The notes under the pieces are model-generated. The model worked only from the letters and a program-made list of their open reading frames with translations. It ran no database searches and was not told the DNA's origin. From contig JADZCJ010000109.1 of assembly GCA_020851635.1 (NCBI GenBank), positions 47,012 to 111,011 of the forward strand: 64,000 bases of DNA. Direction: 5' to 3'. Each line of letters begins with the position of its first letter. Position 1 is the first letter of the stretch. Source of the stretch: Anaerolineae bacterium. Its GTDB lineage: Bacteria; Chloroflexota; Anaerolineae; UBA4142; SHND01. Of the stretch, positions 38,960-44,459 are shown in pieces. The position numbers and the translations under genes are program-made.

Positions 38960-39093
38960 CGCATCTCCTTTCGTTCAACGCCGATTTTTTGATTGCTCTT
39001 GCTGCACTTTTCATTCCTGGGGATCAATTATATGCCTCTGCAATTCAATTGCCAAAAGATTGATCGCATCATTGCCAATTCATGAGGGTTTCT

Positions 39094-42000
39094 ATGAGCA
39101 TACCTCTCCCCGACCCCGCACAAATCTCGCAGCTCGCGCAGGACGTCACCACGATTCTTTCCCCCTATCTTCCTAACCTGCTGGCAGCGGGAGGGGAGGT
39201 CGCAAAGGGTGCTGCAGGCAAGGTTGGCGAAACCATTGTCGAACAAATCTGGAACAAGTTGCGCCCCAAGGTCGAAAAGAAAGAAGCAGCCCGCGACGCA
39301 GTTGCGGATGTTGTCAACACGCCAGACGATCCCGAAGCGCAAATCGTTCTCAAAAAGCAAATTGAAAAAATTCTGATACAGGATGAGGCGCTCTCAGCCG
39401 AATTGCGACCGCTTGTCATCGCGTACAACAAGACTGTCACGGCAAATATCGCCATCACAGATGATGCCAAAGTTGATGTCGGCAATGATATGACAGGTAG
39501 AGACAAAACAACCGCGTCGAGCGAGCATGGTGCGGCAGGAACATTTAACGCACCAGTAAACTTTAATTATTACGGTGAAAAACCAGCTCCTGCGGTCGCC
39601 AATCCCAAGCCCGTGAAAACTCGTTCCCTCACAACCGAACAAGCGCGGGCTGAATATCTGAATGCGGTCATTGCCGATTGCCGCAACGCTCGTCTCGTTG
39701 GGCTTGACCCGAAAGCGGGCGATCCAAATCGAGGTGTGTTGTCACTGGAACGGTTGTATGTTGAACTCGATACAAAGACCCAGGTGGAGGACAAGACCCA
39801 ACCCGATAAAGGAACTGGCGCGCAAGCGGCGCTGTTGGAACGTGAAAGAAAAGTGCCGCTTTCCGCATTGCAGGCGCTCCAAAATGCGCAATACGGTCGA
39901 ATGGTGCTGCTGGGACTGCCCGGTGCGGGCAAATCCACATTCGCCCGCTATCTTGCCCTGCGCATGGCACAACACGCCCTGGACCCAGACACTCCGCTCG
40001 AATCGCTCTTGCCAGCATGGACAGCATCTCCCTTGATGCCATTTGTGATCCCCCTGAATCGTTTTGGTGATTCTCTCGCACCCGACACAATCCAGGGCAG
40101 CGCGCAGCAGATTGAGGATTTCATGGTCCAATCGCTAGAGTTGGACTCGCGCACCAGTGACTTTGCGCCCTATGCGCTAGAGACACTCCGCGCCGGGTCA
40201 GCTCTTGTGCTCTTTGATGGATTGGATGAGGTCGCTGATTTGGGTCGGCGTCCACTCGTCACGCAGGCGATCGATGCATTCACGCATAAATATGGACGCC
40301 ATCCCAACAATTATTTTTTGACGACATGCCGCACCTTTTCATACACGGACGCGCGCTGGAAATTGGGATGGGAACAGCATGAACTCGCGCCGCTAACTCC
40401 GGACAAAATCAAAAGCTTTGTTCACGCGTGGTACGAACAACACAGCGCACTTGAACCTGCGCGGCGCGATGATTTCCGCGCAAAACGCGACAAACTAACA
40501 AAAGCGCTTCGACAGGGGGATCGCCGCAGACTCTGGGAAATTGCCGACAATCCTCTCATGTTGACCATAATGGCTGTCGTTCACACGCACGACGACGATT
40601 TGCCCGATACGCGTGCCCAGGTCTATCAGCGGTGTGTAGATTTACTTTTGCTGCGGTGGGAATTGGAACGGTCAATTGCGGGACGCGTGCGCAAGCGCAC
40701 GCTGTTGGAAGAGCTAAATATTGAGCGACCCAAGTTGGACGATGCGTTATTCGAGATTGCATACAAAGCGCATACAGGGCGCGGCACAAATGAAGGGCGC
40801 CAGAGCGCTCGTGTCACCGAAGATCTGTTGAGCGGCATCCTATTTGCCCGACTCCGCGATAGCGCCCAGGTCAAGACGTTTCTGGATTATTGCGAAAGCG
40901 CCAATGGTCTATTGATGCTGCAAGGCGAGGAAATCCCACCCGATTCGCCGCCGGAAACGCTGCCGCGCCGTTTCTATTCCTTTCCTCATACTACATTTGA
41001 GGAATATCTCGCCGCGCGCTATATCGAGGGCCCGAACCTGGGGCCGCGTCTCCGCAAACTCCTGGATGAAAACTATGATCGCTGGACACAGGTCGCCATG
41101 CTGCTCGGAGAATATCTTTGTTTCGCGCGCAGCGATCAGGAGCGGATGGATGCGATTCTCGGGGCACTTGTGCCTCAAGAGCGTCCCACACAAGAAAAAG
41201 ACTGGCGGGCACTCTTGATGGCAGGGGATCTTTTGATACTCTATGACCGTCGCTGGCCGAATTCCTGCGTGAATCGCAAACAGATACGCGACCGACTAGC
41301 CGAACTTGTCGAAACCGATCAACTCTCGGCAATCGAGCGCGTTGCAGCAGCAGACACGCTCGGTGAACTCGGAGACCCCCGCCCCGGCATCCACGTCCCC
41401 CCTCTCCTCTCCGAACAGGAACCAAACGCGGGAGCATCCATCCTCCAACACCTCCTCTGGTGCCAAATCCCCGCCGGTCCTTTCTGGATGGGCAGCAGCA
41501 AAAACGCCAAGGACAAGCATTACGACCCCGAAGCGTATGCCGACGAGGTGGGGCAAACAGAAAAATACAAAAAGATTGACAAGCCCTTTTACATTTCGCG
41601 TTACCCCATCACGAACGCGCAATTTGATGTGTTTCTTGGCGCGGCGGACGGTTTTCGCAAGTCAAAGTGGTGGGAAGGCTTGGCGAAAACAGACAACACG
41701 GAACCACCCCCAAAATACGGCGGTGTTTTTGACTTGTCCACTCATCCTGTCATTAACATCACCTGGTATCAGGCGGTCGCGTTCAGCCGCTGGTTGAATC
41801 AGTTCCTGCCCGGCGGAGATTTGCAGATTTGGACGCGCGACGGTATAAAAAGCGTGCAAGCGCAAATCCTCTTTTCCGATTCAAAATCACCCGTATTGAG
41901 ATTGCCCACCGAAGCCGAATGGGAAAAAGCCGCACGCGGACCGAACGGCAGAAAATACCCGTGGGACGGCGGCATCACGCCGGAACACGCAAACTATTCG

Positions 42001-42297
42001 GATACCGGAATTGGCGCTACCTCAGCTGTTGGCAGTTTTCCAAGAGGCGCAAGCGAATATGGGGTATTGGATGCAAGCGGCAATGTCTGGGAATGGACGC
42101 TCACCAAATGGACGTCTGACTATGCGGATTACGTTCACCAAGAAGATTATGGTCTTGAGAGCGAGTCCCGCCGCGTCGTTCGGGGTGGTGCGTTCGACAA
42201 TGATTCAAGGGTTGTCCGCTGTGCGTTCCGCGGCCTTGGCTATCCCGTCAATCGTCTCAGGAGTCGGGGGTTTCGGGTGGTGGTCGCTCCTGTCTGA
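39094..42297 (+). CDS. NACHT ATPase with C-terminal FGE-sulfatase domain, DGR target protein
   Basis: The product has 1067 residues from the ATG at 39094 (GAGGG 5 nt upstream). Residues 1-150 form a helical N-terminal region of unknown type, ending in a Gly/Asp stretch and FNYYGE. A NACHT NTPase follows: Walker A GLPGAGKST (274-282), Walker B ALVLFDGLDEV (370-380), then a helical region with FPHTTFEEYLAARYI. From about 786 an FGE-sulfatase/formylglycine-enzyme-like domain runs to the end ([42 protein letters not shown]). Such domains have a C-type-lectin-like fold. Residues 1026-1066 are the variable repeat. The protein resembles STAND/NLR-type sensors, in which ligand binding triggers NACHT assembly. 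The ligand and effector are unknown. Confidence 0.92.
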   Translation: MSIPLPDPAQISQLAQDVTTILSPYLPNLLAAGGEVAKGAAGKVGETIVEQIWNKLRPKVEKKEAARDAVADVVNTPDDPEAQIVLKKQIEKILIQDEALSAELRPLVIAYNKTVTANIAITDDAKVDVGNDMTGRDKTTASSEHGAAGTFNAPVNFNYYGEKPAPAVANPKPVKTRSLTTEQARAEYLNAVIADCRNARLVGLDPKAGDPNRGVLSLERLYVELDTKTQVEDKTQPDKGTGAQAALLERERKVPLSALQALQNAQYGRMVLLGLPGAGKSTFARYLALRMAQHALDPDTPLESLLPAWTASPLMPFVIPLNRFGDSLAPDTIQGSAQQIEDFMVQSLELDSRTSDFAPYALETLRAGSALVLFDGLDEVADLGRRPLVTQAIDAFTHKYGRHPNNYFLTTCRTFSYTDARWKLGWEQHELAPLTPDKIKSFVHAWYEQHSALEPARRDDFRAKRDKLTKALRQGDRRRLWEIADNPLMLTIMAVVHTHDDDLPDTRAQVYQRCVDLLLLRWELERSIAGRVRKRTLLEELNIERPKLDDALFEIAYKAHTGRGTNEGRQSARVTEDLLSGILFARLRDSAQVKTFLDYCESANGLLMLQGEEIPPDSPPETLPRRFYSFPHTTFEEYLAARYIEGPNLGPRLRKLLDENYDRWTQVAMLLGEYLCFARSDQERMDAILGALVPQERPTQEKDWRALLMAGDLLILYDRRWPNSCVNRKQIRDRLAELVETDQLSAIERVAAADTLGELGDPRPGIHVPPLLSEQEPNAGASILQHLLWCQIPAGPFWMGSSKNAKDKHYDPEAYADEVGQTEKYKKIDKPFYISRYPITNAQFDVFLGAADGFRKSKWWEGLAKTDNTEPPPKYGGVFDLSTHPVINITWYQAVAFSRWLNQFLPGGDLQIWTRDGIKSVQAQILFSDSKSPVLRLPTEAEWEKAARGPNGRKYPWDGGITPEHANYSDTGIGATSAVGSFPRGASEYGVLDASGNVWEWTLTKWTSDYADYVHQEDYGLESESRRVVRGGAFDNDSRVVRCAFRGLGYPVNRLRSRGFRVVVAPV
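42169..42291 (+). repeat. DGR variable repeat (VR)
   Basis: These 123 bp at the 3' end of the NACHT-FGE gene align without gaps to 43096-43218. There are 19 differences, each at a TR adenine (11 of 30 TR adenines are unchanged); the 93 other positions are identical. Fourteen codons change, at residues 1026, 1035, 1038, 1040, 1045, 1047-1050, 1052, 1055, 1057, 1058 and 1066. The 3' end (GGGTTTCGGGTGGTGGTCGC) is GC-rich and invariant, like an initiation-of-homing sequence. Confidence 0.96.
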
Positions 42298-42358
42298 CTC
42301 TGGACTCTGGTCCCTCTGAACTCTGTTACTCTGAAATGCTGAACTCTTGGGGGAGAGT

Positions 42359-42385
42359 TTGAGAGGGGGCTGTGCCCCCTCTCAA
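42359..42385 (+). other. Hairpin downstream of VR
   Basis: A perfect 12-bp stem (TTGAGAGGGGGC / GCCCCCTCTCAA) with a TGT loop lies 67 bp after VR. In known DGRs, a hairpin or cruciform close after VR promotes homing. An A5T8 tract after it also allows a terminator reading. Confidence 0.6.
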
Positions 42386-42416
42386 CGCGCGAAAAATTTT
42401 TTTGGGGGTGGTTCGT

Positions 42417-42770
42417 ATGGCTCGCGAGACCGAGATGCCGATCTTTACGCGCACATTTGATTTCTTGACCTGGCTCCTGCCGCTGACCAACACGTTCCCG
42501 CGCGCGCATCGCTTTACCGTCACCTCTCGCCTGCTCGATGCGGCGTTTGATCTGCGTGAACGCCTGGAAGAGGCGCAGTATCGTTCCGGCAAGGAACGCA
42601 GCGAACGTTTGCAACGCGCGGATGAGGCATTGAGTCGCGTGCGGCTGTATCTGCGGCTCGCGGCAAAATGGGAATGGGTCACCGAGGGGCAATACCACCA
42701 TGCCGCGCAGATGGTCGCTGAAATCGGGCGTCTGCTCGGCGGTTGGAAAAAGGTGGGGGCGGTCATGTAG
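42417..42770 (+). CDS. avd: DGR accessory variability determinant
   Basis: The product has 117 residues with the conserved Avd sequence: [68 protein letters not shown] and [14 protein letters not shown]. Avd is a basic four-helix protein that forms a pentamer, binds the DGR reverse transcriptase and template RNA, and is needed for mutagenic cDNA synthesis. The ATG at 42417 is chosen. The TAG stop lies within a palindromic repeat at 42767, so the last residues (VM) come from the repeat. Confidence 0.93.
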
Positions 42771-42793
42771 GGGCGGGGTAACCCCGCCCCTAC
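42767..42793. repeat. GGGGCGGGG palindromic repeat, copy 1
   Basis: GTAGGGGCGGGGT and ACCCCGCCCCTAC form a 13-bp palindrome around one base. It contains the avd stop codon. Related palindromes are at 47727, 54613 and 58584. Confidence 0.8.
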
Positions 42794-43008
42794 GCCCACA
42801 CGCCCACACGCCCACACACCCACACACCTACACACCTACACACCCACACACCCACACGCCCAGACGCCCACACGCCCACACGCCCACACACCCACACGCC
42901 TACACACCCACACGCCCACGCGCCCACACGCCCACGCGCCCACACGCCCACACACCCACACGCCCACACGCCCACACACACCCACACACCCACACGCGCG
43001 AGCGAAAC
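42794..43008. repeat. Cytosine-rich tandem repeat, 8-bp units
   Basis: About 27 units of an 8-bp motif (GCCCACAC, with ACCCACAC and CCTACACA variants) run between avd and TR. The plus strand is almost without thymine and guanine apart from isolated positions. The open frames through it are artefacts of the repeat. It would lie in the 5' part of the template RNA if transcription continues from avd. The 43009-43095 stretch to TR holds no gene. Confidence 0.9.
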
Positions 43009-43095
43009 GAATGCAGAGAACCGCGTCAACTTGTGATGCGTTGTTGTCTATATTCGCCTCGCCCTCGCGGCGGAGGGGGACGAGTCGGAAGCAGA

Positions 43096-43218
43096 CACCG
43101 CGTCGTTCGGGGTGGTGCGTTCAACAATGATACAAGGAATGTCCGCTGTGCGTACCGCAACAATGACAATCCCGACAATCGTAACAGGAATCAAGGGTTT
43201 CGGGTGGTGGTCGCTCAT
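43096..43218 (+). ncRNA. DGR template repeat (TR)
   Basis: This non-coding 123-bp copy of the VR lies between avd and the reverse transcriptase in the same orientation. It is rich in AAC/AAT codons (nine AAY in the VR frame), the codons that give widest amino-acid change under adenine mutagenesis. It should be transcribed as the template RNA for cDNA synthesis. The RNA boundaries cannot be read from sequence. Confidence 0.95.
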
Positions 43219-43305
43219 GCTCTTGCAGGCGTTATGCGCCGCCGGAAATGTGGCGCGATGAAAATTGCGCCGCCGAGGCACAAGAACAGCGCGATTCGTT
43301 CCCGG

Positions 43306-43376
43306 CCGCGCCGGTCCGTCCGGCGCGGGCAAATATAAAACCGCCCCGCGCGCAAGGTCCGTCCTCCGCGCGGGGC
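43306..43376 (+). other. Two tandem GC-rich hairpins between TR and the reverse transcriptase
   Basis: CCGCGCCGG / CCGGCGCGG (43306-43328, 5-nt loop) is followed by GCCCCGCGCG / CGCGCGGGGC (43343-43376, 14-nt loop). They precede the likely start of the reverse transcriptase at 43404 and may structure the 3' part of the template RNA or limit translation. Confidence 0.55.
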
Positions 43377-43403
43377 AAACCTCTTTCGGATCTGGCCTGT
43401 TGC

Positions 43404-44459
43404 ATGTATCAAGACCTCTGCGCGTGGGACAATCTCCTCTCGGCATATCACAAGGCGTCAAGAGGCAAACGCGGACATCCCAACGTCGCCGCGTTCGAAT
43501 ACCGGCTCGAAGATAATTTGCTGCAACTCCAAACGGAACTTGTCGGCAAGACGTATGCGCCGGGACCCTATCACAGCTTTTACATCCACGAACCAAAACG
43601 CAGATTGATCTCCGCCGCGCCGTTTCGCGATCGCGTGGTGCATCATGCGCTGTGCAATCTGGTCGAACCCCTCTTTGAGCGCAGTTTCATTCCCGATTCA
43701 TACGCCAACCGCAAGGATAAAGGGACGCATCGCGCGCTGGACCGCGCGCAGCAATTCTCACGACGGTTCCGCTACGTGTTGCAGTGTGATATCAAGCAGT
43801 ATTTTCCAAGCATTGACCACATCATTTTGCGTGACATTCTCGCGCGCAAACTGGATGATCCCGCTATTTTGGGTTTGATTGACCTGATCCTGGCAAGCGG
43901 GCGCGGCGTCCTGGCGGAAGAATACACGATGGTGTATTTTGACGGGGATGACCTGTTTGCGGCGAATCGCCCGCGCGGGCTGCCGATTGGCAACCTGACG
44001 AGCCAATTCTGGGCAAACTGCTATCTCAATCCATTCGATCATTTTGTGAAACGCGAGTTGGGGTGTCGCGGCTATGTGCGCTATGTGGATGATTTTCTTG
44101 TGTATGCGGACGACAAACAGACGCTTTGGAAATGGCGCGCGGCGATCCTGCGGCGCCTGGCGCAATTGCGGGTCACGCTGCACACGGGCGCGGCGCAAAT
44201 CAGACCTGTCCGCGAGGGCATCTCGTTTCTGGGGTTTCGCGTTTTTCCAACGCACCGTCGCCTCAAAAACCGCGTGGGTTTTGCCGCACGGCGGCGGCTG
44301 ATTCGGCTTGTGCGCGCATACCGCGCGCAGCAGGTCGGGTTCGACCGGCTCGATGCATCCGTGCGCGGTTGGGTGAATCACGCCCGTTACGGTGATACAA
44401 TGCAGCTGCGCCGCGCGGTCCTGCGCGACGCGCTGAGCCAAAAAAAGGCAACCGGATAA
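43404..44459 (+). CDS. DGR reverse transcriptase
   Basis: The product has 351 residues from the ATG at 43404 (MYQDLCAWDNLLSAYHKASRG). It has the DGR form of the fingers motif LPIGNLTSQ (193-201; group II intron enzymes have QGxxxSP) and the catalytic YVDDF (227-231), plus DIKQYFPSIDH with the first catalytic Asp and GISFLGFRVFP. No maturase or endonuclease domain is present, as expected. It copies the TR RNA with adenine errors, working with Avd. An ATG at 43248 in the same frame is possible but would read through two hairpins and add an Arg/Pro-rich leader unlike the family. The next gene starts 4 nt after its stop. Confidence 0.94.
   Translation: MYQDLCAWDNLLSAYHKASRGKRGHPNVAAFEYRLEDNLLQLQTELVGKTYAPGPYHSFYIHEPKRRLISAAPFRDRVVHHALCNLVEPLFERSFIPDSYANRKDKGTHRALDRAQQFSRRFRYVLQCDIKQYFPSIDHIILRDILARKLDDPAILGLIDLILASGRGVLAEEYTMVYFDGDDLFAANRPRGLPIGNLTSQFWANCYLNPFDHFVKRELGCRGYVRYVDDFLVYADDKQTLWKWRAAILRRLAQLRVTLHTGAAQIRPVREGISFLGFRVFPTHRRLKNRVGFAARRRLIRLVRAYRAQQVGFDRLDASVRGWVNHARYGDTMQLRRAVLRDALSQKKATG

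Follow-up and report, generated by a model that had tools for sequence, protein, structure and literature searches.

A complete diversity-generating retroelement in an Anaerolineae genome and the CTG ladder that likely belongs to its landing site

A diversity-generating retroelement (DGR) is located at positions 39082–44459 of a 64,000-nucleotide stretch of contig JADZCJ010000109.1 from an Anaerolineae bacterium (assembly GCA_020851635.1); the whole stretch is referred to here as the window. The DGR is complete: it includes avd, a reverse transcriptase (RT), a target with FGE and C-type-lectin character, and a variable repeat (VR) that differs from its template repeat (TR) only at adenines. 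Directly downstream of the VR lies a series of five CTCTG units, which we call the ladder. It is probable that the target has been rewritten by mutagenic retrohoming, with the block resembling an initiation of mutagenic homing (IMH) sequence and the ladder together serving as the landing site. The features on which this reading depends are the following, all on the forward strand.

39082–42297, +: target gene with an N-terminal region, a NACHT-like P-loop NTPase, and a C-terminal FGE-sulfatase/C-type-lectin part that contains the VR
42169–42291, +: VR, 123 bp, from the VR/TR alignment
42268–42289, +: IMH-like block at the 3' side of the VR, free of adenine and identical to TR positions 43195–43216 in the VR/TR alignment
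42290, +: C facing an A of the TR (43217), a probable fixed IMH/IMH* boundary difference, from alignments
42298–42333, +: ladder, immediately downstream of the VR: five CTCTG units, with CTG at 42300, 42307, 42316, 42323, and 42331
42359–42385, +: GC-rich inverted repeat identified by eye, with a 12-bp stem and a TGT loop, then an A and T run
42417–42770, +: avd, 117 residues from the ATG at 42417 (PF22296, bAvd, 8.6e-18 and 6.1e-18)
43096–43218, +: TR, 123 bp, with 30 adenines, from the VR/TR alignment
43404–44459, +: DGR reverse transcriptase, 351 residues (RVT_1, 9.9e-15)

Adenine-restricted differences between the repeats

The order target, avd, TR, and RT proposed in the first-pass annotation of this DNA was confirmed, and the motifs LPIGNLTSQ and YVDDF that it named are present in the RT translation. 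Its gapless 123-bp alignment of VR and TR gave the same result when recomputed, with 19 differences, each at one of the 30 adenines of the TR, and none at the other 93 positions. From TR to VR, nine of the differences are A to G, seven A to T, and three A to C. The chance that all 19 would fall on TR adenines is ~6e-15 (hypergeometric). This bias refutes the notion, which hardly deserves consideration, that the VR and TR arose by ordinary duplication and then diverged by drift; such a duplication would account for two similar copies and nothing more. The codons of VR and TR differ in 14 of 41 cases, all 14 altering the amino acid, and seven of the 14 are Asn codons in the TR. Past mutagenic homing, as the annotation had proposed from the adenine-only differences, is the right reading, and it is as good as certain that the DGR has mutated its target. 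The RNA of the TR would be copied by a complex of Avd and RT with errors opposite adenines, and the cDNA would replace the VR upstream of the adenine-free block common to both repeats.

The genome containing the window (G000) is a draft of 5.8 Mb that is 97.7% complete, and its genus mates are numbered from G001. RT matches are present in all six genomes of the family that were examined, which belong to one genus. Alignment of VR and TR in the same genome and in five genus mates, a check suggested in the annotation, yielded nine further TR/VR pairs of the same kind; they came from an adenine-tolerant scan, so their adenine bias is partly by construction. The ten pairs contain 174 adenine differences and 3 others, the latter being a floor, since the aligned intervals are runs free of non-adenine mismatches or two such runs joined. 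The pairs of loci L040, L041, and L043 have one internal non-adenine difference each, from T in the TR to G in the VR, which in L040 and L041 is at the identical place, adjoining an adenine.

Two further RTs of G000 are 59% and 56% identical to that of the window. On contig C103, the sister DGR has a target of the KAP-NTPase/FGE type, and its 108-bp TR/VR pair shows 22 differences, every one at an adenine. In the sister DGR on contig C44, an RT with an open frame follows a NACHT/FGE target, and Avd is truncated (L008 8790–10117); no TR was found within the surrounding 16 kb, and the element is probably decaying. The TR of the window also matches a second VR on another contig (G000:C32:62631–62752, 82%; L007 7630–7752), located at the 3' end of a gene encoding TatA-like, DUF4062, and FGE domains. 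The two align over 94–97 bp with 20–22 differences, all at TR adenines. The C32 VR is put out of frame by a single-base gap at an adenine pair, and the open reading frame ends inside it; a short VR gap also stops the frame inside the VR of G001:C253 (L082), the target of which is 80% like that of C84. These frameshifts may be homing errors, decay, or assembly errors.

A scan of named genomes with the RT gave 572 relatives, from which, among the matches listed, 80 loci were kept. Their hosts, again among the matches listed, include Chloroflexi, Accumulibacter, Nitrosomonas, Methylumidiphilus, and Acidobacteria; the relatives from Chloroploca, Viridilinea, and Accumulibacter suggest that the RT may belong to DGR RT clade 5D of multicellular bacteria. 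Accepted TR/VR pairs are present in 55 of the 80 loci, where a VR was required to end an open frame and to have at least six differences; 70 VRs were kept from 90 repeat pairs, and 63 of them form a non-redundant set after removal of near-duplicates and rows bearing N.

The 3' boundary of the homing region appears to follow the pattern of DGRs in which an IMH ends the VR and an IMH* the TR: a common adenine-free block, an A/C difference, and then unrelated sequence. The remote C32 VR also has C at the position facing A 43217 of the TR. A VR/TR difference is present in the last 14 nucleotides of 63 of the 70 VRs of the RT clade (near-duplicates included); the 3'-most one replaces the template A by C in 41 VRs, by G in 13, by T in 8, and by N in 1. 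Elsewhere in the clade, C accounts for 137 of 908 differences at A. The 3'-most difference in the window is thus probably a fixed IMH/IMH* boundary difference and not a mutation; this leaves 18 of the 19 differences as good evidence of mutagenesis.

A spaced CTG ladder downstream of variable repeats

Successive CTGs of the window ladder are spaced 7, 9, 7, and 8 nucleotides apart, and further CTGs lie at 42290, 42294, and 42339. The TR of the window has no ladder counterpart on its 3' side. In the genus, spaced CTCTG or TTCTG units follow all 12 first VRs (ten with a TR, and those of C32 and C44), and no ladder was seen after the ten TRs. The ladder of C32 also has five units. At three of the five VR-less FGE genes of G000, those that were read, the ladder is absent; one of the three has TTTTTGA repeats in the place of the ladder.

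The six genomes were searched for the ladder pattern, and the results given here refer to some of the places among the matches listed. Of 25 distinct places with at least three overlapping pattern matches, 19 are at the ends of FGE genes with a VR-like end: eight are VRs of known cassettes, another five can be paired with a TR from the same genome, and the remaining six cannot. The five further targets have 0–1 non-adenine mismatches to TRs of their own genome over 56–109 bp, and all carry the ladder variant of the cassette of their TR. Four targets in G001 were found anew by the ladder scan, three on contigs remote from the cassette (C143, C253, and C93) and the fourth as a second target beside the C98 cassette; C32, known already, was recovered too. 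Among 25 ladder-bearing VRs, 15 can be matched to a TR from the same genome. In 18 of the 25, exactly five units, either all CTCTG or all TTCTG, lie within 70 nucleotides; the two kinds are hardly mixed.

Two observations concern the templates of these targets. The TR of G001:C98 (L046 7225–7281) is cut by an insertion ~57 bp in, and its second half lies beyond. G002 has one RT match yet seven ladder-marked VR-like targets (L043, L083, L084, L100, L101, and L102). The VR of G002:C82 matches the TR of G001:C234, from another species, over 122 bp with 22 adenine differences and no other; a close copy of that TR was sought in G002, and none was found.

The ladder extends beyond the genus. In the RT clade, at least four CTGs are present within 90 nucleotides after 57 of 70 VRs and after 4 of 70 TRs. 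Chains of at least four YTG units, where Y is C or T, follow 51 of the 63 non-redundant VRs (2% of shuffles), and the commonest chain length is five units (24 of 63). Among the 64 trinucleotides, CTG ranks first for pairs spaced by 7 or 8 nucleotides after VRs, with 185 pairs versus 6.7 in shuffles; after TRs the best trinucleotide is CGG (25 versus 9.9), and CTG is outside the top six. The enrichment is strand-specific, with 4.97 CTG versus 1.08 CAG per 100 nucleotides. Pairing of the ladder with template RNA 3' of the TR is not supported, because CAG is not enriched in the 90 nucleotides after the TR, which the check covered (1.56 CAG and 1.84 CTG per 100 nucleotides).

A viral set was assembled from 13 annotated phage records and 80 IMG/VR loci, of which 62 of 79 rows were kept after de-duplication at 75% identity. 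The 62 phage VRs are followed by 146 YTG pairs at 7 or 8 nucleotides versus 13.7 ± 3.8 in 1000 shuffles, with 6 such pairs after the TR and 8 for the reverse complement. An unbiased trinucleotide scan again placed CTG first. Chains of at least four YTG units follow 33 of the 62 VRs, or 33 of 55 (1% of shuffles, for the 55) when seven rows of divergent elements (L228–L233), none with more than two units, are left out. In the BPP-1-type phage BIP-1, the 21-bp IMH reads TCTG...CTG...TTG, and its middle CTG is present only in the VR copy; the TR copy, IMH*, has mismatches there. In Bacteroides-like viral DGRs, at least three YTG units follow 5 of 60 VRs, which is near chance, and our Avd profile matched 0 of 80 loci. 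The profile may miss divergent Avd proteins: it missed the annotated Avd of the L233 record and that of ANMV-1, for which passages of PMC4372165 report Avd.

Hairpins differ between the groups. That of the window, with its TGT loop, lies 68 nucleotides beyond the VR; the phage type with a GC stem and a GRNA loop, 4–34 bp after the VR, is absent in the window and is not required of all DGRs. Hairpins with a 6-bp stem and a GRNA loop occur at none of the 63 VRs of the RT clade versus 43 of 55 phage VRs. Other GC hairpins are present further downstream in the clade, within 160 nucleotides of 43 of 70 VRs (1.5% of shuffles).

Proposed recognition of the ladder and alternative explanations

The most satisfactory account of the ladder is that of an expanded recognition element of the IMH type, which likely marks where the mutated copy lands; its probable counterpart in phage BPP-1 is the 21-bp IMH element, which sets direction there. 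This proposal is derived from the position of the ladder at VRs only, its recurrence, strand, and spacing, its value for locating targets, and its agreement with the functional IMH of BPP-1. Within one genome, the ladder variant is specific to the TR lineage, at further targets too, so that the ladder is likely read by a factor encoded by the element and not by the host.

The main rival holds that the host reads the ladder: CTG start sites of primase would seed an Okazaki fragment toward the VR and so help the cDNA to join the lagging strand. Passages of PMC5429622 and PMC5204125 describe the E. coli primase as starting on 5'-CTG, and the strand specificity of CTG given above is as this explanation would have it. 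In E. coli, according to passages of PMC12875486, BPP-1 homes preferentially to targets co-directional with the replication fork, the strand complementary to the cDNA being the lagging template. The GC skew of the window, +0.016, is too weak to tell fork direction. However, priming requires no period of 7–8 nucleotides, and within one genome the flanks of the ladder go with the element and not with the host. The ladder is also found in Bacillus and Faecalibacterium phages, whereas the Firmicutes primases studied in the passages of PMC5429622 and PMC5204125 prefer CTA or CCC, B. subtilis being the one of these hosts covered. Overexpression of DnaG, or dnaG(K580A), did not change the BPP-1 assay, a result that its authors call inconclusive (PMC12875486). 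On balance, reading by the host primase is unlikely.

We regard as improbable to a similar degree that the ladder is an intergenic short tandem repeat, a series of stop codons, or a terminator leader, which was copied along with targets and has no role in homing. Runs of TCTG with a period of 7 and of TTTTTGA are present at other gene ends in the genus, and the base following the unit is A, giving TGA, in 45% of the units of the clade and 47% of those of phages. More than half of the units make no TGA, and the ladder as mere stop codons is therefore unsupported. Furthermore, the window (C109) and C32 targets have the ladder in common and diverge a few bases beyond it, and the ladder recurs after VRs of phage genes other than those of the FGE/NTPase type in the set de-duplicated at 75% identity.

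Several observations weigh against the ladder as a recognition element of a homing DGR. The reversed ladder pattern, used as a control, matched more often than the forward one in three of the six genomes (63 versus 36 in G001, 69 versus 25 in G002, and 165 versus 25 in G004); thus, the bare pattern is not specific. Five of the 25 dense ladder places are not at VRs, and one is at a contig end and undecidable. For ten of the 25 VRs with a ladder, none of the TRs found in the same draft genome is a match, and the second C98 target scored best with the TR of G000:C103, the insertion-broken TR of its own genome being second. The Cruim-like phage clade has Avd in 80 of 80 loci, yet at least three YTG units follow 0 of 24 of its VRs; these Pseudomonas-phage DGRs of the Cruim01 type (L394–L473) have an ATT repeat with a period of 4 or 8 after the VR. 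The presence of Avd as the sole explanation of the ladder is rejected on this ground. Variants of RT and Avd co-vary with the ladder variant, so that neither is singled out as the reader. In the passages of PMC3240598 that cover the BPP-1 work, single YTG units were not mutated. The differences between VR and TR are evidence of past homing read from assembled sequence. The NACHT-like stretch of the target (residues 274–452, 5.7e-5) scores 23.4 bits, below the Pfam cut-off of 26.7, which the sister target on C44 exceeds with 39.4 bits.

If an element-encoded factor reads the ladder, a guess at its identity is Avd, since each solved Avd entry has five chains (one entry with five chains for 4dwl, nine entries with 45 chains for the 8ub7 series) and five is the commonest number of units in the RT clade. 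A more general version of this idea is tentative, and the odds are against it: about five YTG units, one every 7–8 nucleotides before a hairpin, would form a widespread, lineage-specific address of VRs that is read by a five-subunit ring of Avd. With the coding strand opened, each subunit would bind one unit of it. Overwriting would be confined to copies that carry the ladder, whether nearby or remote VRs, and the ladder-free TR would be spared. The middle CTG of the BPP-1 IMH would be the same element, and a unit of its own for each lineage would insulate several DGRs in one cell from each other.

Remaining features of the cassette and comparison with known systems

Two further features of the cassette flank the TR.

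42792–42997, +: minisatellite of 25.5 copies of the 8-bp unit ACGCCCAC, between avd and the TR
43219–43403, +: spacer between the TR and the RT, probably non-coding, with blocks conserved in four class-1 relatives

The ACGCCCAC repeat was not found upstream of the nine other TRs compared. G001:C3 has seven copies of the 12-bp unit CTGCCCAATTTG between avd and TR, where the window has its minisatellite. The RT most likely starts at the ATG at 43404, because a methionine is present there in four aligned class-1 relatives and because in most relatives the match begins only near residue 51 of the longer frame; this start makes the preceding spacer probably non-coding. An Rfam scan of 42300–43500 gave two chance matches only, far under threshold. 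The Avd of the window matches Avd entries of the PDB (4dwl, 1.2e-4; 8ub7, 8.6e-4).

The first ATG of the target reading frame is at 39082, and 39094 is an in-frame ATG 12 nucleotides downstream. The FGE-sulfatase domain spans residues 795–1067 (6.2e-47), and the C-terminal part matches the sequences of solved FGE-type proteins and of a variable protein of a Treponema DGR, 2y3c (2.8e-10). PADLOC returned only a weak TRIP13 match for the target of the window (0.0086), and matches to QatA and other KAP-type NTPases for the sister target on C103. Homology suggests that the diversified domain may sense invaders and that the NTPase part may trigger a defence response.

The DGR of the window is in itself ordinary, and the ladder is the point of interest. 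What is known of how a DGR selects the copy that it overwrites comes largely from a single phage, which has a hairpin and a 21-bp IMH whose logic is unclear. A lineage-specific repeated unit at constant spacing, shared by phage and chromosomal DGRs, would make that choice a readable code. The ladder can point to further targets from sequence alone, as it did for the four in one genome.

DGRs with STAND-NTPase targets are already known; what is new here is the remote C32 target, the two sister RTs, and the ladder. The ladder is not mentioned in the passages of PMC3240598, PMC10907252, PMC8144416, PMC12875486, PMC10743442, PMC4372165, PMC6199706, PMC4891356, PMC7517822, and PMC6642488 that were available, and it is absent from the results of a literature search; figures, supplements, and most subscription papers were outside the scope of the search, so that it may be in print elsewhere.

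According to the passages available, Dore et al. 2024 (PMC10907252) describe DGRs with STAND-NTPase targets in multicellular bacteria, Chloroflexi included, and targets diversified in trans. The DGRs studied here resemble them in combining an NTPase with a C-lectin part that contains the VR, in occurring as several related elements per genome, in having trans-diversified targets, and in the presence of filamentous Chloroflexi among the hosts. By contrast, one TR here matches both a NACHT-like and a DUF4062-FGE target, and those passages do not mention the ladder. The remote targets are like those of cyanobacterial DGRs, for which passages of PMC7517822 describe VRs that are far from the cassette and at the 3' ends of C-lectin genes. 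Cis features of remote targets were only proposed there, whereas here a scan for a cis feature found further VRs in one genome.

Guo et al. 2011 (PMC3240598) state that in BPP-1 the direction of transfer is set by a 21-bp element and its five mismatches. The window shares with BPP-1, as described there, the order target, Avd, TR, and RT, adenine mutagenesis, an IMH at the 3' end of the VR, and a downstream inverted repeat. The BPP-1-type phage has a 21-bp IMH with three YTG units and a GRNA-loop hairpin close by; by contrast, the window has five CTCTG units and a 12-bp-stem, TGT-loop hairpin 68 nucleotides after the VR.

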